DNA of 26,441 nucleotides, taken from positions 1 through 26,441 of IMG/VR virus record IMGVR_UViG_3300033997_000179; one strand, 5' to 3'. Shown piece after piece: positions 14,305 through 23,469 of this stretch (the stretch's first letter is position 1; each line of letters opens with the position of its first letter). Position numbers and translations under genes: made by a program. Under the pieces are notes generated by a model. The model did no database searches and was not told where the DNA came from. It was given only the letters and a program-made list of their open reading frames with translations. Source of the stretch: a virus.

Positions 14305-14633
14305 TGACCAACTACATACCCCCAACCGAATCGGCCCTTATGCAGCGCCTGGAGGAGTGCGTTCAAAAAGCGGCAGGCCCAATGGAGGTGGAGGCCTGGT
14401 ACCGGATTGCCTGCCTCGGAGACTTCTTCGCCGAGCAAAATGGCTGGGTCTTCAATGGCTGGAGCGCTGTGATCCTGGTGCTCGTCAAGCGCCACAACTG
14501 GTTGCCGGAGGAAATAGAGCGCATGAGCGTCAGCCATCTTGCGATCGTCCTGACCGAGGATCTCGTAAACCACAAACTCACCCCTCTGCAGAGCTCGTTC
14601 CTGGCTCAGTGGATGAAGCGCCAGCAGCGGTAA
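14304..14633 (+). CDS. Unknown 109-residue protein antisense inside the early operon
   Basis: The gene has AGGAGG six bases before its ATG, a strong signal. The protein begins MTNYIPPTESALMQRLEECV and includes AWYRIACLGDFFAEQNGWVF, WSAVILVLVKRHNWLPEEI and MSVSHLAIVLTEDLV; it looks like a compact helical protein. I recognise no family. It is read opposite to the early minus-strand operon that runs across it, and its 3' end overlaps the convergent gene at 14578 by 56 bases. It may be a separately controlled extra gene ('moron'). The opposite-strand frames here have poor, Arg-rich or Ser-rich content and look spurious. Confidence 0.68.
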   Translation: MTNYIPPTESALMQRLEECVQKAAGPMEVEAWYRIACLGDFFAEQNGWVFNGWSAVILVLVKRHNWLPEEIERMSVSHLAIVLTEDLVNHKLTPLQSSFLAQWMKRQQR

Positions 14634-17634: not shown

Positions 17635-18138
17635 ATGTCTGCAAAAGCCGCCGCTCCTGCGCTCATCGTCGCAGCAATGGCACTGGTTGGAGACTACTCG
17701 GCAGCAGCCGAGACAACCAAGCAGGGTCGTGATGCTCAACACCTGTCGATTCCATTCAAGCAGGAAGACATCCGCGAGGTCATCGCAAAGATGGTCGGAG
17801 ACTGGAACGCGCTGGATGCCGATTACATGAAAATCGTTGCGAGCCTGGCTGAGTTCAGCAGGTTCGACGAAGAGCAGTTTCTCAAGAACATGGAGCTGCT
17901 GAAGGCCACTCGCCAACTCGAGGCGGCGCTGCAACAAGCGCAAGTGCCTGAGATTTTGAGCAGCGAGCATATGGCGCTACGCCGGGCTATCGCCAAGGTC
18001 AGAGGCCGCCTGGTCACCATTGATCACCTCCTCCGCCAACACTTCGTAACCCTAGACGAGTTTGAAACCCGTCTGTCTGGCAAGGCGTTAAGCGACTTGG
18101 CCGATCACACCAATCGGCAGCTGGCTAAGCTAGCCTAA
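17635..18138 (+). CDS. Unknown protein upstream of YafO toxin, candidate antitoxin
   Basis: The protein has 167 residues; AGGAG precedes ATG 17635. The first 25 residues (MSAKAAAPALIVAAMALVGD, then YSAAAE) are mildly hydrophobic and could be a weak signal peptide. The rest is helical and charged (FKQEDIREVIAKMVGDWNAL, MELLKATRQLEAALQQAQVP, AKVRGRLVTIDHLLRQHF). It is not a Phd/YefM protein like the usual antitoxin YafN. It ends eight bases before the toxin gene and both share one promoter, so it is the natural antitoxin candidate. If the N-terminus is truly exported, that role fails and the protein is something else. Confidence 0.65.
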   Translation: MSAKAAAPALIVAAMALVGDYSAAAETTKQGRDAQHLSIPFKQEDIREVIAKMVGDWNALDADYMKIVASLAEFSRFDEEQFLKNMELLKATRQLEAALQQAQVPEILSSEHMALRRAIAKVRGRLVTIDHLLRQHFVTLDEFETRLSGKALSDLADHTNRQLAKLA

Positions 18139-18146
18139 GGGAGCCA

Positions 18147-18587
18147 ATGGCGGTTGAAGTCAGCTTCCACCCGGAAACATTCGCGCTCTTCTTCAAGCCG
18201 GTAGACGCCAAGCATCCAGGCCTTTCAGACACGCTTCGGGCGGAGTTTGCGCGCTACATGGAGTCCGGCCGCCTGGAGATACCCTCGATATTCGGCAAGG
18301 ATGTGCCGTACATGCAGCCCGTGCAGGCCGCCCAGGCCTGCATGATGCATATCCATATCAAGATTCCGCCTGCCACCTTCCCCAAGGGCGTGCCGCAGCA
18401 CAATCGCGTATGCCGGCGCGGCAGCCCTGGCGAAGACGCCGCCCTGATCTACGTGCCCGGCGAACTGTACGAGGATCGCTTCCTTATTCTGGCTTTCTTC
18501 TGGCCTGATGCGCACGGCAAAGCCAGGGATCGCGCCACCATGAAGAAACTTGCAAGGCTTGCACAGGCCTGGCGCGACCAGAACTGA
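18147..18587 (+). CDS. YafO-family type II toxin (ribosome-dependent mRNA interferase)
   Basis: The protein has 146 residues. It matches the YafO pattern along most of its length: SGRLEIPSIFGKDVPY, a MHIHIKI strand, the PHNR-like PQHNRVCRRGS turn, DAALIYVPGELYEDRFLILA and a C-terminal RDRATMKKLARLAQAWR, against the known E. coli YafO layout of about 130 residues. YafO cleaves mRNA during translation near the start codon. AAGGGAG lies just before the ATG. The gene ends the immunity-region insert and is followed by a strong terminator. Confidence 0.82.
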   Translation: MAVEVSFHPETFALFFKPVDAKHPGLSDTLRAEFARYMESGRLEIPSIFGKDVPYMQPVQAAQACMMHIHIKIPPATFPKGVPQHNRVCRRGSPGEDAALIYVPGELYEDRFLILAFFWPDAHGKARDRATMKKLARLAQAWRDQN

Positions 18588-18603
18588 CCGCCAGCAAAAA
18601 CTG

Positions 18604-18627
18604 AAGCCCGCCCAGCGCGGGCTTTTT
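18604..18627 (+). terminator. Terminator after the YafO gene
   Basis: The stem AAGCCCGC/GCGGGCTT with a five-base loop is followed by TTTTT. It closes the repressor-side transcripts just before the second operator cluster. An A run on the 5' side would let it work on the other strand too. Confidence 0.85.
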
Positions 18628-18645
18628 CATGCCCAGCGAAAATAA

Positions 18646-18662
18646 TTTAGCTCTGAGCTATT
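18646..18662. promoter_or_regulatory. Operator O4 (TTTAGC-N5-GCTATT)
   Basis: One half perfect, the other with GCTA conserved. It ends on the first two bases of the -35 of the rightward promoter. Confidence 0.65.
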
Positions 18663-18689
18663 GACGTTATTTTAGCCTGTAGCTAAATT
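18661..18689 (+). promoter_or_regulatory. PL-like promoter of the right operon
   Basis: TTGACG (18661-18666), a 17-base spacer, TAAATT (18684-18689). O4 and O5 overlap it, so the lysogenic repressor should shut it off. Expected start near 18696. Confidence 0.7.
18671..18687. promoter_or_regulatory. Operator O5 (perfect TTTAGC-N5-GCTAAA)
   Basis: Both halves perfect, lying between -35 and -10 of the rightward promoter exactly as O3 lies in the cro promoter. Confidence 0.75.
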
Positions 18690-18718
18690 CACTCCATCGC
18701 CGCCGGAAACGACGGCCA

Positions 18719-18778
18719 GGCCGCAAGGCCACCGCTCTTTAACAACCAGCGCCATGAACAGCTAGCCGGGCAACCGGC
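18719..18778 (+). promoter_or_regulatory. nut-like antitermination site: boxA with two GCAA hairpins
   Basis: CGCTCTTTAACA at 18733-18744 is a consensus boxA. It is flanked by GGCC-GCAA-GGCC (18719-18730) and GCCGG-GCAA-CCGGC (18765-18778), hairpins with GNRA tetraloops. Lambda boxB loops fold like GNRA. The site lies 25-80 bases after the expected transcription start. Confidence 0.6.
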
Positions 18779-19002
18779 GAGGCAGCCCCGGCCATCACCT
18801 GTGGGGCGACAGAAAGTCAGGTGAACCAACCGCTACGCCGAACGGCGACCGGCGTTCAGAGGTAGGCCACAGAGGGGCCGAGCCTGACGAGGTGCTGACC
18901 GAACCGCGCGAATGACCCGAGAGGCGTAGCGAGCAAGACAAGGTTTCACTGGCTGGCCTTCCACCGAGGGCCAGACGGGAAGCCAGCCAGGGAGACACGG
19001 CC
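18779..19002 (+). other. Long untranslated leader of the right operon
   Basis: From the promoter to the first ATG there are about 300 bases with no ORF carrying a ribosome site. After the nut-like site the leader is GC-rich with several inverted repeats (for example CACCTG with CAGGTG at about 18797 and 18819, and GCCG/CGGC pairs near 18840-18860). It ends with the 43-nt element at 18942-18984. Confidence 0.5.
18942..18984 (+). promoter_or_regulatory. Structured RNA element, copy 1
   Basis: Outer stem GGTTTC/GAAGCC, linker ACTGG, inner stem CTGGCC/GGCCAG, ten-base loop, linker ACGG. Its end lies 18 bases before ATG 19003. A second copy with the same dimensions lies at 19244-19286. Confidence 0.65.
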
Positions 19003-19239
19003 ATGTTCGAAGCTATCCACTACAACCGCCACAGCAGCGAAGGGCACACCTGCTGCACCTACTTCTCCGATGACGTTACGGGCGTCTTCGGCTTTCACGT
19101 CACCGAGCAGCGCGCCGCCTTGAATTGCCAGCTCGGCCCCATTGAGGCCACTCGCTCAAACACCATCAGCCACTACTACAGCCACGCCCGCGGCCGGTAT
19201 GTGGCGCGGACTGAAGACGAAGTGCACGACTTCTCCTGA
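19003..19239 (+). CDS. First protein of the right operon, unknown (78 residues)
   Basis: GGGAG lies eight bases before the ATG. The protein begins MFEAIHYNRHSSEGHTCCTY and continues FSDDVTGVFGFHVTEQRAAL and SHYYSHARGRYVARTEDEV, a small beta-rich pattern with several His and Cys but no spaced zinc motif. No family recognised. Being the first gene under the repressor-controlled promoter, it is where lambda has N, but the protein is not Arg-rich and does not look like N. Confidence 0.62.
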   Translation: MFEAIHYNRHSSEGHTCCTYFSDDVTGVFGFHVTEQRAALNCQLGPIEATRSNTISHYYSHARGRYVARTEDEVHDFS

Positions 19240-19243
19240 TCAC

Positions 19244-19286
19244 GGTTTCACCGGCAGCCCTTCTCACCAGGGGCTGACGGGAAACC
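19244..19286 (+). promoter_or_regulatory. Structured RNA element, copy 2
   Basis: Outer stem GGTTTC/GAAACC, linker ACCGG, inner stem CAGCCC/GGGCTG, ten-base loop, linker ACGG. Length and spacing equal those of copy 1, and two inner base pairs differ by double changes that keep pairing. It ends 20 bases before GTG 19307. Confidence 0.65.
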
Positions 19287-19306
19287 AACCAACAGGAGCG
19301 CAAAAA

Positions 19307-19954
19307 GTGCCCAACCACATTACCAACCGCGTCAGCGCGCCCGCAGAAGTGCTGCGTTCGCTGATCAACGAACAAGGCGATATCGACTTCAACACCTTGC
19401 TGCCGTTCAAGGGCACTTTCCCTTGGGACTTCATCAGCGGCGGTGCAGAAACTGCGGCAGAGATGATCAGCGGAACGCCGCTCAATGACCATCCGCTGAT
19501 CAGCTCACTGCAGGCGTCGAACCGCCAGCGCGCAAACGTCATGGAGCTTGATGACGAAGATTTCGAGCAGTTCGTACAGATGCTGCGCAACAAGCGGGTT
19601 TGCGGACATCTGCATAATATGGACTGGGGGCGCGTTGCGTGGGGAACCAAGTGGAACGCCTATAGCCAGGAGATCGAACTGGAAGAAGGCCGCCTCAAGT
19701 TCGACACCGCCTGGTCTTGCCCGCAGCCGGTATTCGAGGCCCTTTCCAAGCAGCATCCGGCGGCTGTCATCGAAGTGCAGTTCGCCGATGAAGACATCGG
19801 CAGCAACTGCGGAACCCTGATCTTCAAGGGCGGGCAAATCGCCGAGAAAGACTGTGCTGGCCAATGGGGCGCCATGAGCAGCGCCGCCCAGCAGAAATGG
19901 TCGGCCTTTGCCTACGCCGTCAAAGGCTGGGAACCCGAGCAAGACGAAGACTGA
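19307..19954 (+). CDS. Api92-like protein (DUF1281/YubB ferredoxin-like)
   Basis: The chosen start is GTG 19307, eight bases after AGGAG, giving 215 residues; the longer frame to 19142 reads through the upstream gene and leader. The opening MPNHITNRVSAPAEVLRSLI is the typical start of this family, followed by IDFNTLLPF, the WGRVAWGTKWNAY block, FDTAWSCPQPVFEALSKQHP and a late ADEDIGSNCGTL block. These proteins carry a ferredoxin-like fold and are frequent on phages and plasmids; function is unknown. It lies after the second structured RNA element. Confidence 0.82.
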   Translation: MPNHITNRVSAPAEVLRSLINEQGDIDFNTLLPFKGTFPWDFISGGAETAAEMISGTPLNDHPLISSLQASNRQRANVMELDDEDFEQFVQMLRNKRVCGHLHNMDWGRVAWGTKWNAYSQEIELEEGRLKFDTAWSCPQPVFEALSKQHPAAVIEVQFADEDIGSNCGTLIFKGGQIAEKDCAGQWGAMSSAAQQKWSAFAYAVKGWEPEQDED

Positions 19955-20212
19955 CTCCAGCACCACCCGCTAAGCGCTGGGCGAACCCGGCGGGCGTGTG
20001 GTGCCCGTGCCGCTTCGGCATGCCAATGCGTTAGCGCCGGTCCATCTCAGCCGGCAGATCGGGCGCGCCAACGCCTGGATCAAAGCGCGCACGGGTGAAT
20101 AAAGCGGTAGCCAGGTGGCCGGTGAACGCCGGCATCCCCTGCAAGCGGCGGGCCTCGCCGCGGGCGACAGAGAGGCCAACCCCTACATCAACATCCACCA
20201 CAGGTGCCCACC
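19955..20212 (+). other. Structured intergenic region, no gene seen
   Basis: The 258-base gap has no ORF with a ribosome site. It holds nested inverted repeats: CACCAC/GTGGTG enclosing CCCGC/GCGGG, GTGCCG/CGGCAT, GCGTT/AACGC and GCGGCG/CGCCGC (20145-20161). The transcript should be heavily folded. Purpose unknown. Confidence 0.45.
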
Positions 20213-20476
20213 ATGAACGTACTCACCAAAGCCCGCGACTCCATCGCCGAGCTGCTCGACGCCATGCGCCACACCAGCCAAGCCAGCATGGCCGCCCAGC
20301 AGCGCCAGCGCCAGCCAGTACCCGCCCCGCGTGCCACCCACCTGGTGTGCAGCGGCAACGCCATGATCCGCGTGGTAGACGTCGACACCGGCCGCGTGCT
20401 CGGCTTCCGCCGCACCGTGCGCGAAGCGCGCTGGCTCGCCAGCCACCTGGAGCGTGGCCTGCACCTGCAACAGTGA
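20213..20476 (+). CDS. Small unknown protein (87 residues)
   Basis: ATG 20213 is preceded by AGGTG. The protein has a helical N-terminus (MNVLTKARDSIAELLDAMRH), a Gln/Arg/Pro linker, then a small beta part: THLVCSGNAMIRVVDVDTGR with VLGFRRTVREARWLASHLE. No family recognised. It ends 10 bases before the tandem-HTH gene. Confidence 0.65.
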   Translation: MNVLTKARDSIAELLDAMRHTSQASMAAQQRQRQPVPAPRATHLVCSGNAMIRVVDVDTGRVLGFRRTVREARWLASHLERGLHLQQ

Positions 20477-20486
20477 GGGCGCCAGC

Positions 20487-20948
20487 ATGCTCCAGAACCC
20501 GCACTACAGCAGCCACGCCGAGCAACAGGCCGCACTCGGCTGCGCCGCCACGCTAGACCCCGAAAAACACCCGCGCCGGTTTGCCCAGCACCAGGCGCGC
20601 GAGAAGTTCAAGCCACCCAAGCGCTGCCACCAGCCGGGCAGCGAAGCGCGCACGCCGGAGCTGCTCGAAGCAGCACGCGCCCTCTCCCACCTGCGCATCA
20701 GTGAGGCAGCGCGCGAGCTGGGCATAAGCCGCAGCGTCCTCACCCGCCTGCGCGATGACTACGGCATCGAGTTCGCGCCATCCCGCGAAAACGCCTCCAG
20801 CCGGCTACGCCGACTGGCCGGCACCAACCCGACTATGTACGAGTTGGCCGATGCCGCAGGCCTCTCCTACTCGCACACCTACAAGCTGTGCAAGGAATAC
20901 GGCATAGAACCCGGAGTGCACTATGGCCAAACCCCAGAAGGAGCGTGA
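20487..20948 (+). CDS. Tandem helix-turn-helix protein
   Basis: Starting at ATG 20487 (GAGGG seven bases upstream), the protein has 153 residues. Two similar helix-turn-helix units are visible: ISEAARELGISRSVLTRLRD with DYGIEF (71-96) and MYELADAAGLSYSHTYKLCK with EYGIEP (117-142). They look like an internal duplication. The N-terminal 60 residues are basic and probably flexible. It should bind DNA and may regulate this operon or the phage switch; the target is unknown. Its 3' end overlaps the next gene by 26 bases. Confidence 0.72.
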   Translation: MLQNPHYSSHAEQQAALGCAATLDPEKHPRRFAQHQAREKFKPPKRCHQPGSEARTPELLEAARALSHLRISEAARELGISRSVLTRLRDDYGIEFAPSRENASSRLRRLAGTNPTMYELADAAGLSYSHTYKLCKEYGIEPGVHYGQTPEGA

Positions 20949-21237
20949 CGCCGCCACGGCCCAGCGCCGCAAGGCCGCCGGCGAAGAGGAACTGCGCCAC
21001 CGCGTGCGCCCCGGCATCCTCGCCATCCTCACCGAGCTGATGGAATGGGGCGAACACACCGAGCGCACCGAATGCCTGCAAACGCTGCTGCTCAACGTCC
21101 ACGCCCTGGGCCGCGACCAGGCCGCCGCCCTGCTCCAACCGCCGCGCCACGAAATCCACATATCCGCAACCGTGGCGCGCCAGCTCTACCAGCAAGGCGC
21201 CGAACAAGCCGGGCGCCTCGATCGGCAAGAGCAGTAA
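20923..21237 (+). CDS. Small unknown protein with Arg/Lys-rich N-terminus
   Basis: The protein has 104 residues and overlaps the preceding gene. The first 28 residues (MAKPQKERDAATAQRRKAAG, then EEELRHRV) are charged and helical, and resemble the general look of arginine-rich RNA-binding heads of N antiterminators; the length also fits N. The rest is helical (ILTELMEWGEHTERTECLQT, ATVARQLYQQ). The N comparison is only a possibility suggested by the nut-like site in the same operon; a DNA-binding or unrelated role is as likely. Confidence 0.62.
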   Translation: MAKPQKERDAATAQRRKAAGEEELRHRVRPGILAILTELMEWGEHTERTECLQTLLLNVHALGRDQAAALLQPPRHEIHISATVARQLYQQGAEQAGRLDRQEQ

Positions 21238-21298
21238 ACCACCACCCACCACACCGGCCGCAGCAGCGGCACGGGATCGTTCGTTCTGGAGAAAGCCC

Positions 21299-21742
21299 AT
21301 GCACTCATCCGTACTGATTGGCCGCAAAGGCGTGCCGGTGATTTGCCGAAACCTGCTGCCAAGCGAACTCAGAACCGTTATCCAGCCAGACAACGACCGC
21401 GAAGAGTTCTTGCTTCTGCTGGCCGAAGAGCAGCACCTGAGAGCTGTGGCTGCCGAACAGCTCGGCGAGGACTACGACGACAGCGACGATGACGAGCTGA
21501 TCGGCTACAAGCTGAGCCTTGCGGAAAAGGTCGAGCGCGCAGAGAGCCAGGTTGGCGACATGCTCCGCAGGATTGATCGGACCAGAGATCAAACCAACGA
21601 GATCCTGGGCATTGCGAAGCGCGCCCTGCTGAATCAGTCGATGGTTGCCAGCAGCGAGGAAAGGCTGCAGAGCCTTCTGAATGACCTGGCCGAACTCAGG
21701 CATCTGGTCGGTTCGCGCGCTTGGGACGATCTGCGGATATGA
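21299..21742 (+). CDS. Unknown acidic, coiled-coil protein (147 residues)
   Basis: ATG 21299 has GGAG eight bases upstream. The N-terminus is a short folded part (MHSSVLIGRKGVPVICRNLL), followed by a very acidic stretch (GEDYDDSDDDELIG, about 56-69) and a long coiled coil (LAEKVERAESQVGDMLRRID and onward). No family recognised. Base use matches its neighbours. Confidence 0.65.
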   Translation: MHSSVLIGRKGVPVICRNLLPSELRTVIQPDNDREEFLLLLAEEQHLRAVAAEQLGEDYDDSDDDELIGYKLSLAEKVERAESQVGDMLRRIDRTRDQTNEILGIAKRALLNQSMVASSEERLQSLLNDLAELRHLVGSRAWDDLRI

Positions 21743-21788
21743 GCCTGCGCGACCAGGGCTTCCGCTTCTGCCTGAGACCTGACAAGCG

Positions 21789-21820
21789 GAGTTCACTGGC
21801 GACAGCAGGCGGTTGAACTC
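21789..21820 (+). promoter_or_regulatory. Hairpin abutting the ATG of the small zinc protein
   Basis: GAGTTCA (21789-21795) pairs perfectly with TGAACTC (21814-21820), which touches the ATG at 21821. The 5' linker ACTGG and the 3' CGG resemble the elements at 18942 and 19244, but the inside is shorter. It leaves no free ribosome site. Confidence 0.5.
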
Positions 21821-21949
21821 ATGACCAAAGCCTGCTGGTACGTCTGCCTGCCCTGCGGAAAGCGCTTCCCCATGGTCGGCAGCAAATGCGACCACGACGA
21901 AGCGCTGACCCACGCCCTGGGCATCTGGCCCCACTGCTGGGTGGAGTAA
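21821..21949 (+). CDS. 42-residue zinc-finger-like protein
   Basis: The frame runs from ATG 21821 to TAA 21947-21949, where it overlaps the first possible methyltransferase ATG. The product begins MTKACWYVCLPCGKRFP and carries C-x3-C-x2-C, then KCDHDE, and ends IWPHCWVE, so it has enough Cys and His to bind a zinc ion. Its translation must open the hairpin just before it. Too short for a firm family call. Confidence 0.55.
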   Translation: MTKACWYVCLPCGKRFPMVGSKCDHDEALTHALGIWPHCWVE

Positions 21950-21954
21950 TGAAC

Positions 21955-23469
21955 ATGACCATAACCTACGGCTCAATCTGCAGCGGCATCGAGGCCGCGA
22001 CCGTCGCCTGGCACCCGCTGGGCTGGCGGGCGGAATGGTTCGCAGAGATCGAGCCGTTCCCTTCGGCGGTGCTCGCCTACCGCTGGCCCGAGGTTTCCAA
22101 CCTGGGCGACATGACCAAGCTGGCCCGCCAGGTGCTGGCCGGCAGTATCGCCGCGCCGGAGGTGCTGGTGGGAGGCACGCCCTGCCAAGCGTTCTCTGTC
22201 GCCGGCATGCGCGCGGGCCTGGACGACCCGCGCGGCCAACTAACCATCAAGTATGTGGAGCTTGCAGATGCAGTTGACCATGTTCGAACCGCCAGAGGCG
22301 AGCCAGAGTGCATCGTTGTCTGGGAAAACGTCCCCGGCGTCCTCTCCGACAAAGGCAATGCGTTCGGGTGTTTCCTCGGGGCCCTGGTGGGCGAATCCGA
22401 TGCGCTCCAGCCGTCAGGGGGAAAATGGACGGACGCTGGTTGTGTGTATGGCCCCGTCCGAACAGCCGCATGGCGGGTGCTGGATGCCCAATATTTCGGC
22501 CTGGCCCAACGACGCCGCCGTGTGTTCGTTGTCGCAAGTGCTAGAGCAGGGTTCGATCCCGCTGCGGTACTTTTTGAGTCCGAAGGCGTGCGCCGGGATA
22601 CTGCGCCGCGCAGAGGCGAGGGGGAAAACCCTACCGGCACAATTGCAGGTGGCGCTCGCAGAAACGGCGGATACAGCACCGACGATATCCCACTGACTGC
22701 TGCGACTATCACAGCCAACTACGGCAAGGATGGCGGCGCCCGAGCAGGCAACGACTGTCAGCCAGTGAACCTCATCGTCGCCGGTACGCTTCAGGCCAAC
22801 GGCAAAGCAGCCAGCAGCGCCACACAGCAGGATGCGGAAAGCGGCCTGCTGGTGGTGCACGGCACGCAAGATCCATGCGTCGATGACCATATCGCTCACA
22901 CCCTGGGCAGAAACCATGGCCAAGAAAACGCCATTTTCGCAATTCAGAACGCCACTCGCGGGAAGGATCAGAACGGCCTTGGCATTGCCGCCGACTCGCC
23001 GATGTACACGCTGGATCAGGCCAGCCAGCACGCTGTTTTCGCTATTCAAGCCGGCGCATTGCGCACCAATCCACTGAGCGGCCCTGATGGCGTAGGCGTT
23101 CAGGCTGATCATGCATACACGCTTGAGGCTCGCGCCGAAGTTCAGGCGGTGGCTGTCGCTCTGCGCGGCAGGGATGGTGGCGCAACGGCGGAGCTGGGAG
23201 ACGAGGTGCAAAACTGCCTGCGCGCTTCGAACGGTGGCGGGGACAAGTCGCACGTTATGATCAGTTCTGGTGTCCGCAGACTAACTCCCATCGAATGCGA
23301 GCGACTACAGGGATTCCCTGACAACTGGACGCAGATCCCATGGCGCGGCAAGCCGGCCGAGGAATGTCCCGACGGCCCGCGCTACAAGGCCATCGGCAAC
23401 AGCAAAGCCGTCCCGGTTGTTCGCTGGATCGGCCGGCGCATTCAGCGCGAACTGGAGCGTGCCCAATGA
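21955..23469 (+). CDS. dcm: Cytosine-C5 DNA methyltransferase
   Basis: The chosen start is ATG 21955, eight bases after GGAG; an ATG two codons earlier is too close to it. The protein has 504 residues. Motif I is YGSICSGIEAAT, motif IV is GGTPCQAFSVAG with the catalytic Cys77, motif VI is WENVPGVL, motif VIII is FGLAQRRRRVF, and IX-X lie at the end (LTPIECERLQGFPDNW, YKAIGNSKAVPV). The target-recognition region is long, with two similar units marked by FAIQ and by AD-x-x-YTL. It methylates cytosine, likely shielding phage DNA from host restriction. No cognate nuclease is nearby. Part of the coding region doubles as the frame at 22268-22696. Confidence 0.93.
   Translation: MTITYGSICSGIEAATVAWHPLGWRAEWFAEIEPFPSAVLAYRWPEVSNLGDMTKLARQVLAGSIAAPEVLVGGTPCQAFSVAGMRAGLDDPRGQLTIKYVELADAVDHVRTARGEPECIVVWENVPGVLSDKGNAFGCFLGALVGESDALQPSGGKWTDAGCVYGPVRTAAWRVLDAQYFGLAQRRRRVFVVASARAGFDPAAVLFESEGVRRDTAPRRGEGENPTGTIAGGARRNGGYSTDDIPLTAATITANYGKDGGARAGNDCQPVNLIVAGTLQANGKAASSATQQDAESGLLVVHGTQDPCVDDHIAHTLGRNHGQENAIFAIQNATRGKDQNGLGIAADSPMYTLDQASQHAVFAIQAGALRTNPLSGPDGVGVQADHAYTLEARAEVQAVAVALRGRDGGATAELGDEVQNCLRASNGGGDKSHVMISSGVRRLTPIECERLQGFPDNWTQIPWRGKPAEECPDGPRYKAIGNSKAVPVVRWIGRRIQRELERAQ
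22268..22696 (+). CDS. Out-of-frame gene inside the methyltransferase gene
   Basis: ATG 22268 has GGAG seven bases upstream and opens a 142-residue frame, MQLTMFEPPEASQSASLSGK, continuing with TSPASSPTKAM, PNISAWPNDAAVCSLSQVLE and RYFLSPKACAGILRRAEARG before KTLP. The last block is a pattern I know from separate phage proteins that lie beside methyltransferase genes. In the methyltransferase frame the same bases encode conserved parts such as WENVPGVL and AQRRRRVF. Both frames therefore look functional. Long open frames arise easily in GC-rich DNA, so the case rests on the recognised pattern and the ribosome site. Confidence 0.5.
   Translation: MQLTMFEPPEASQSASLSGKTSPASSPTKAMRSGVSSGPWWANPMRSSRQGENGRTLVVCMAPSEQPHGGCWMPNISAWPNDAAVCSLSQVLEQGSIPLRYFLSPKACAGILRRAEARGKTLPAQLQVALAETADTAPTISH

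Follow-up and report, generated by a model that had tools for sequence, protein, structure and literature searches.

A 43-nt RNA hairpin with a conserved tail before early genes of Pseudomonas phages

We found a conserved RNA unit, consisting of a 43-nt hairpin and an AACC tail (together 47 nt) in unconserved flanks, at two places in the window, by which we mean the whole stretch of 26,441 nt of viral DNA analysed here (IMG/VR record IMGVR_UViG_3300033997_000179), and in homologous copies elsewhere. That this element is a real, selected RNA signal is in our judgement practically certain, and it apparently represents an undescribed control element before many unrelated early genes of Pseudomonas phages. 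As to its function, we favour, at a probability of roughly 40%, the reading that the hairpin is an RNA processing or translation signal of early operons, which the host RNase III would cut or bind.

Fold of the hairpin and its conservation

Both copies lie exactly where a first-pass annotation had placed them from the letters alone (Table 1), and the compensatory changes between them are as it described: the inner stem differs at two pairs, each by a true double change (U-A to A-U at one, G-C to C-G at the other), and one pair of the outer stem is altered from U-G to U-A. The gaps to the two start codons (ATG at 19003 and GTG at 19307) amount to 18 and 20 nt, as claimed. The proposed loop of 10 nt does not stand, as most of it is predicted by RNAfold to be additional stem, with 9 inner pairs and a 4-nt loop in copy 1 and with 8 inner pairs and a 6-nt loop in copy 2, which otherwise folds like copy 1. 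Similarly, AC(T/C)GG and ACGG are predicted not to stay open as a loop but to pair at three places (CYG/CGG), with one A bulged out and a G.A mismatch. The predicted folding energies are -27.5 and -28.5 kcal/mol, and when each copy was folded with 4-6 nt of flank (z -4.6 and -4.7), none of 200 dinucleotide shuffles was as good.

A covariance model (R1), built from 31 unique copies in other viral contigs with the window sequence excluded, scored copy 1 at 64.0 bits (E 7.3e-15) and copy 2 at 61.2 bits (E 3.9e-14), as against 18.5 and 11.5 bits on the mirror strand of the two hairpins and 10.2 bits at the best other site of the window. By this model, the hairpin precedes only the first two genes of the window operon. 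A third, shorter relative had been suggested at the ATG at 21821; the stretch in question (21785-21824) has similar letters, but it scores at chance level (10.2 bits, E 1.3; z -1.8, with 8 of 200 shuffles as good) and was rejected. Copy 2 begins 4 nt past the stop codon of gene 1. For gene 1 of the window, neither PHROG nor Pfam gave a match; its homologue in the closest relative, locus L295, likewise lies behind a hairpin. Directly 5' of the presumed early promoter, the window encodes a YafO-toxin family protein (18147-18587, plus strand; Pfam E 3.9e-19), and the stretch 17635-18138 might hold its partner.

Table 1. Features of the early region in the window
Feature	Position	Strand	Description
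Sigma-70-like promoter, presumed early promoter	18661..18689	+	TTGACG-17-TAAATT; consensus match only, 1 found vs 0.2 expected
boxA-like site at leader head	18733..18745	+	CGCTCTTTAACAA; sequence and leader alignment
Putative leader hairpin	18765..18778	+	GCCGG-GCAA-CCGGC; sequence, inside aligned region
Predicted leader pseudoknot	18785..18824	+	Stem 18785-18789/18803-18807; loop 18795-18801 pairs with 18818-18824
Hairpin copy 1	18942..18984	+	43 nt; RNAfold and R1; lower stem 6 bp, bulged A, CUG/CGG, G.A mismatch, upper stem 9 bp, loop 4 nt
3' tail of copy 1	18985..18988	+	AGCC, consensus AACC
Shine-Dalgarno-like site of gene 1	18990..18994	+	GGGAG; sequence
Gene 1, downstream of copy 1	19003..19239	+	ATG start, 78 aa
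Hairpin copy 2	19244..19286	+	43 nt; compensated variant CAGCCC/GGGCTG
3' tail of copy 2	19287..19290	+	AACC
Shine-Dalgarno-like site of gene 2	19294..19298	+	AGGAG; sequence
Gene 2, downstream of copy 2	19307..19954	+	GTG start, 215 aa, DUF1281_C / Api92-like, PHROG 12644

The first-pass view that the two copies reflect a selected RNA fold before start codons is strengthened by the homologues, as a covariance model search of other phage and bacterial sequence yielded further copies with covariation. Across 96 unique 43-mers, 95.5% of the pair cells are paired and 158 cells hold double changes; sliding the partners lowers these figures to 27-57% and 13-26 cells. Of the 18 pairs, 13 show one or more double changes; since the slid controls also reach 4-11 of 15-18 pairs, the count of double-change cells is the telling measure. 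Column shuffles of the 96 sequences still left 83.9% paired, and 109 unique hairpins aligned to the model contain 95.9% standard pair cells vs 82.5% when shuffled. Our first collection was gathered by an exact pattern, and some of the conservation that A1 and R1 show at the letters of this pattern therefore stems from the selection.

Particular features of the fold recur throughout the 96 sequences: the bulged base is A in 90, the G.A mismatch is present in 66, and GNRA (52) and UMAC (11) are the main loop types. At two positions, U-G wobbles outnumber every other pair type (87/96 and 73/96), which indicates that the RNA strand and not a DNA dyad is under conservation; wobble pairs are tolerated by RNA pairing and are not favoured in a DNA inverted repeat, which argues for selection at the RNA level. 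Among six variant forms that were folded, five keep a similar geometry, in which a loop of 3-4 nt closes an upper stem of 12-13 layers above 4-6 lower pairs; four of these have the bulged A and one a small internal loop. In subtype II, a 1x1 mismatch replaces the bulge. One further copy (L328:2476-2526, minus strand) lacks both bulge and mismatch and reads as an almost perfect duplex. Conservation ends shortly after the hairpin: in 72 hairpins, one per downstream cluster, the information content is 1.49 bits per base within the hairpin, 1.08 in the next five bases and 0.07-0.15 outside, with 1.65, 1.38, 1.21 and 0.73 bits at tail positions +1 to +4.

The first-pass annotation had recognised no known family, and Rfam 15 gave the same result, with no covariance model matching the window at gathering score; at E values up to 5, the region 18600-22000 returned three implausible hits, none of them on the hairpins. 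In titles and abstracts of the open-access literature, no description of the hairpin element was found among the matches listed. Searches of literature text for the hairpin sequence strings gave, among the matches listed, only hits to one 10-letter word in papers on unrelated subjects. The hairpin does not resemble an intrinsic terminator, as its AACC tail holds no U tract and no terminator-like site was detected at either hairpin of the window.

Placement, distribution and the upstream leader

The hairpin holds a narrow position before start codons. At 179 of 190 unique places, a start codon follows within 60 nt (median 17 nt, IQR 16-22), with distances peaking at 16-17 and 22-24 nt. A start codon alone within this range is common by chance (1216-1229 of 1900 random positions). 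Under matched rules, a start codon together with a Shine-Dalgarno-like site was found at 167 of the 190 places vs 370 of 1900 random positions on either strand and 419 of 1900 on the hairpin strand; with the start placed 14-25 nt from the hairpin, the counts are 152 of 190 vs 114 and 142 of 1900. Narrower rules for the random positions had given 165/190 vs 258/1900, so that the matched rules make the enrichment weaker, though it is still clear. On the other side, an upstream ORF of at least 40 aa ends no more than 80 nt before the hairpin or just inside it at 111 of the 190 places, its stop codon often abutting the hairpin, which sits on the coding strand between this stop codon and the Shine-Dalgarno site. 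Hairpins on both strands occur in none of the loci that make up the 144 locus-strands; the set selected by leader sequence (see below) includes one best match on the opposite strand.

The genes behind the hairpins are varied. Their 178 proteins, mostly short, fall into 85 clusters, and the known types among 70 downstream proteins that were scanned include CsrA-like, alginate-lyase-like, TerB-like and ParB-HTH proteins. An alginate-lyase family gene lies behind the hairpin in phage contigs (L022:4789-5460, plus strand; Pfam E 1.4e-39) and belongs to a cluster of 5 loci, and phage CsrA-like genes are found in the same position in L013, L035, L045 and others (a cluster of 6 contexts).

At least 120 stretches in viral contigs match the exact hairpin pattern (TTTCACYGG...ACGGGAAR). 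Among the matches listed, 83 of 127 share an identical 39-nt span, which is mostly located directly 5' of a Shine-Dalgarno-like site and a start codon. R1 at E values up to 1e-4 detected the element in 64 of 298 genomes drawn from the Pseudomonas genus of genome G001, this genome included; G001 (Pseudomonas graminis, holding locus L141) served as the centre of the draw and was chosen as a carrier of the element. In a class-wide draw of 274 genomes, it was the sole match of R1 under strict filters. A blastn search matched 32 phage records, comprising 29 Pseudomonas phages, 2 unclassified phages and 1 weak Gordonia match, and the element is present in phages of P. aeruginosa and P. syringae (e.g., phi297, LESphi3, phiPSA1 and Medea1). 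Each of 38 phage records of at least 40 kb, selected as carriers, contains 1-5 matches, with mirror-strand matches counted. Plasmid records matched in 51 cases; most of the query is covered in 6 of them, every one from Pseudomonas, and the other 45 are partial. A pattern scan of bacterial genome contigs was discarded, as the matches listed appear by spacing and organism to be mostly chance, with few Pseudomonas loci among them.

The hairpin is linked to a conserved leader. In the window, this leader carries at its head CGCTCTTTAACAA, which we take to resemble rrn boxA, followed by a small putative hairpin and the predicted pseudoknot (Table 1). Fourteen aligned leaders have the boxA-like site and long conserved stretches in common, and several further leader types lie behind the same boxA. 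Compensatory sets for the pseudoknot were present in 54 of 56 unique leaders of one leader type, and none were found in the other 2; composition-only shuffles reached the median score in 0.3%, a figure to be read in view of the mutual relatedness of the leaders. The conserved boxA/pseudoknot leader is a candidate RNA antitermination leader, and Rfam returned no match for 18733-18824 of the window. A leader-encoded peptide was considered and rejected, since the reading frame is not kept (in the window it reads ATG AAC AGC TAG), whereas the stems are. In phi297 (L290), the early leader contains the annotated CDS phi297_00024 (14387-14599, minus strand), which is flanked by the hairpin and by a boxA variant recognised by eye near 14620 and may therefore be spurious.

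In 76 of 144 locus-strands, the first hairpin is preceded by a boxA-like site no more than 1.5 kb away, and the entire 5.1-Mb set contains 93 such sites on both strands. The other 68 locus-strands are without a strict boxA-like site within 1.5 kb, and 8 of the 144 had less than 600 nt upstream; a much looser boxA pattern, applied with no control, was seen in 40 of the 62 remaining locus-strands with 600 nt upstream. Conversely, among 64 testable loci fetched by leader sequence alone, R1 (E up to 0.5) located a hairpin on the same strand within 1 kb in 54, and in 46 of these it lies 205-260 nt downstream. Of the 10 without a model match, 8 show a divergent hairpin in the same place by eye (two such forms were folded), and the leaders of L352 and L365 appear by eye to lack a hairpin at the expected place.

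Possible readings of the hairpin

We propose that the 47-nt unit is a cis-acting RNA signal in temperate phages of Pseudomonas, where it marks the 5' edge of ribosome-binding sites of first genes in early (pL-like) operons and is often preceded by a boxA leader. These early operons would be antiterminated, and a factor that reads double strands, most likely the host RNase III, would cut or bind the hairpin in the nascent early mRNA. Such a cut could release every small cistron from the leader bound at boxA or from the upstream cistron, and the resulting clean 5' end beside the Shine-Dalgarno site would permit independent translation of each exchangeable early gene. Release of this kind is the current understanding of the RNase III site in the lambda N leader and of the T7 R sites. 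With 18 pairs, a bulge and a mismatch, the helix comes near two helical turns, and 18-19 stacked pairs are at the low end for efficient RNase III cleavage.

The RNase III reading is favoured because the layout follows that of lambda nutL and N, with promoter, boxA, about 200 nt of leader, hairpin, Shine-Dalgarno site and first gene in this order. RNase III reportedly modulates the repression of N translation (work of Wilson et al. from 2002). PMC5725501 places lambda nutL about 200 bp before N, describes the RNA between them as highly structured, and states that Nus factors together with N repress N translation. In 54 of the 64 leader-selected loci and in the window, the hairpin follows a boxA-type site and precedes the Shine-Dalgarno site of the first early gene. 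Unlike in the lambda N leader, the genes behind the phage hairpin are diverse and the first gene of the window is without a family, and the hairpin is repeated before later genes with its conserved bulge and tail. No family of the N antiterminator appeared among the 25 of 62 PHROG families listed for 70 downstream proteins. The T7 R sites offer a second likeness, being several related irregular hairpins between the cistrons of one phage transcript, near ribosome-binding sites; unlike them, the present hairpin spans many different phages of one host genus and carries the AACC tail.

Several observations fit less well. RNase III is present in nearly all bacteria, so the restriction to Pseudomonas in our genus and class draws is left unexplained by the RNase III reading. 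The low number of stacked pairs, the confinement of the hairpin to the first two genes of the window operon and the 68 locus-strands without a strict boxA-like site also speak against it. Moreover, the bulged A, the G.A mismatch and the U-G pairs, as well as the tail, are conserved beyond what RNase III would demand of its substrates in general. This pattern is indicative of a specific RNA-binding protein and ranks this second, tentative reading directly after RNase III. Here, the hairpin would be a translational operator: a host or phage protein might recognise the bulged A and the upper helix and block or help 30S loading, and thereby coordinate many early genes. Coat-protein hairpins of RNA phages and the translational repressors of T4 are parallels. 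The upper stem of five of the six folded variants retains its 12-13 layers despite differing sequences, the AACC tail is conserved along with the bulged A, and the start codon is mostly found at distances that correspond to the edge of what we take to be the 30S footprint. Subtype II with its mismatch in place of the bulge, and the nearly perfect duplex of the L328 copy, argue against such recognition. The operators of the PP7 and MS2 coat proteins are likewise bulged-A hairpins at a translation start region, but the phage element differs from them in its upper stem of 12-13 layers, its location 5' of the Shine-Dalgarno site, its occurrence in DNA phages and its lack of a known partner.

The first-pass annotation had named RsmA as a candidate for binding. 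RsmA/CsrA sites are characterised by a conserved GGA in the hairpin loop, whereas the loops of the 96 unique 43-mers, mostly GNRA or UMAC, do not conserve such a GGA. Among the 38 hairpin-carrying phage records (40-63 kb, possibly fragments), CsrA is encoded in 7 and DUF1654 (PF07867) in 21, so that both were rejected as the common partner. The absence of a universal partner among these two phage families weakens the operator reading, and that neither is common to all carriers fits a host factor. In phi297 and LESphi3, DUF1654 is annotated on the opposite strand just beyond the early promoter region.

We consider it improbable that the hairpin is a passive insulator or stabiliser, a strong structure without a specific reader that keeps upstream sequence off the Shine-Dalgarno site and shields the 5' end. 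The folding energies of the window hairpins would suit this role, and shuffling the hairpin lowers the predicted unpaired probability of the start region from 0.522 to 0.489, the native form having the higher value in 90 of 129 cases. However, the effect is small, as omitting the hairpin in silico gave 0.513 (p 0.17) and exchanging it for more upstream sequence gave 0.511, and an insulator would not need the conserved bulge, wobble pairs and tail.

Gene exchange, which clusters at the 3' edge of the hairpin, raises a further alternative. Homology to L295, the closest relative, runs from 18686 to 19286 of the window, the last base of the second hairpin, and resumes at 20186, i.e., 899 bp later. 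The window thus has an Api92-like gene segment of 899 bp (19287-20185) that is missing from L295 at the corresponding place (2575-2582), and the left junction of this segment coincides with the end of hairpin 2. Among hairpin pairs of at least 90% identity, 4353 of 4645 are embedded in flanks of less than 40% identity; in 102 of 151 anchored pairs that share only the left flank, homology ends 0-7 nt past the hairpin, and in 47 pairs that share only the right flank, the onset of homology falls within positions -15 to +2 relative to the hairpin start. The pairs in these counts are not independent of each other. Such junctions fit a needed signal that heads swappable cassettes, or homology-driven swapping, and both may hold. 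That the hairpin is kept mainly as a homology patch for swaps of early cassettes, with structure and spacing to the ribosome-binding site as by-products, seems to us quite unlikely: near-identical hairpins in unrelated flanks would be expected of such a linker, but homology alone predicts uniform sequence and not compensatory subtypes with a similar fold, and junctions at the hairpin edge are equally expected if swaps must preserve a needed RNA signal.

Least likely of all is an antitermination element of the boxB or put type, repeated along the operon and acting on RNA polymerase, for which the linkage to the boxA leader and the GNRA loops speak (lambda boxB adopts a GNRA fold), whereas the tight spacing to the start codon and the recurrence of copies before later genes speak against it. 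HK022 putL and putR are also structured RNAs in a phage early operon, but put, as described in PMC9378689, spans about 70 nt with two stem-loops and acts on RNA polymerase, unlike the single 43-nt hairpin at its near-fixed distance from start codons; since that account puts putR at about 270 nt from its start site, promoter distance is no objection to antitermination.

The element also opens the way to a direct test, in that a single host factor, RNase III or another, either acts on all copies or does not. A broader idea, which we regard as doubtful, is that the hairpin may be a portable RNA tag common to Pseudomonas temperate phages and read by a Pseudomonas host factor, which would make genes inserted behind it in the boxA-led early operon separately controlled immediate-early genes. 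Hairpin and pseudoknotted leader would then constitute a two-part RNA expression system for swapping early genes and, if this is true, possibly a new kind of antitermination leader. The element is carried by about a fifth of the sampled genomes of the genus, G001 included, and yet has no match in Rfam. As it marks the starts of dozens of small and mostly unknown early-protein families, it can guide both gene calling and the search for genes of host takeover in these phages.
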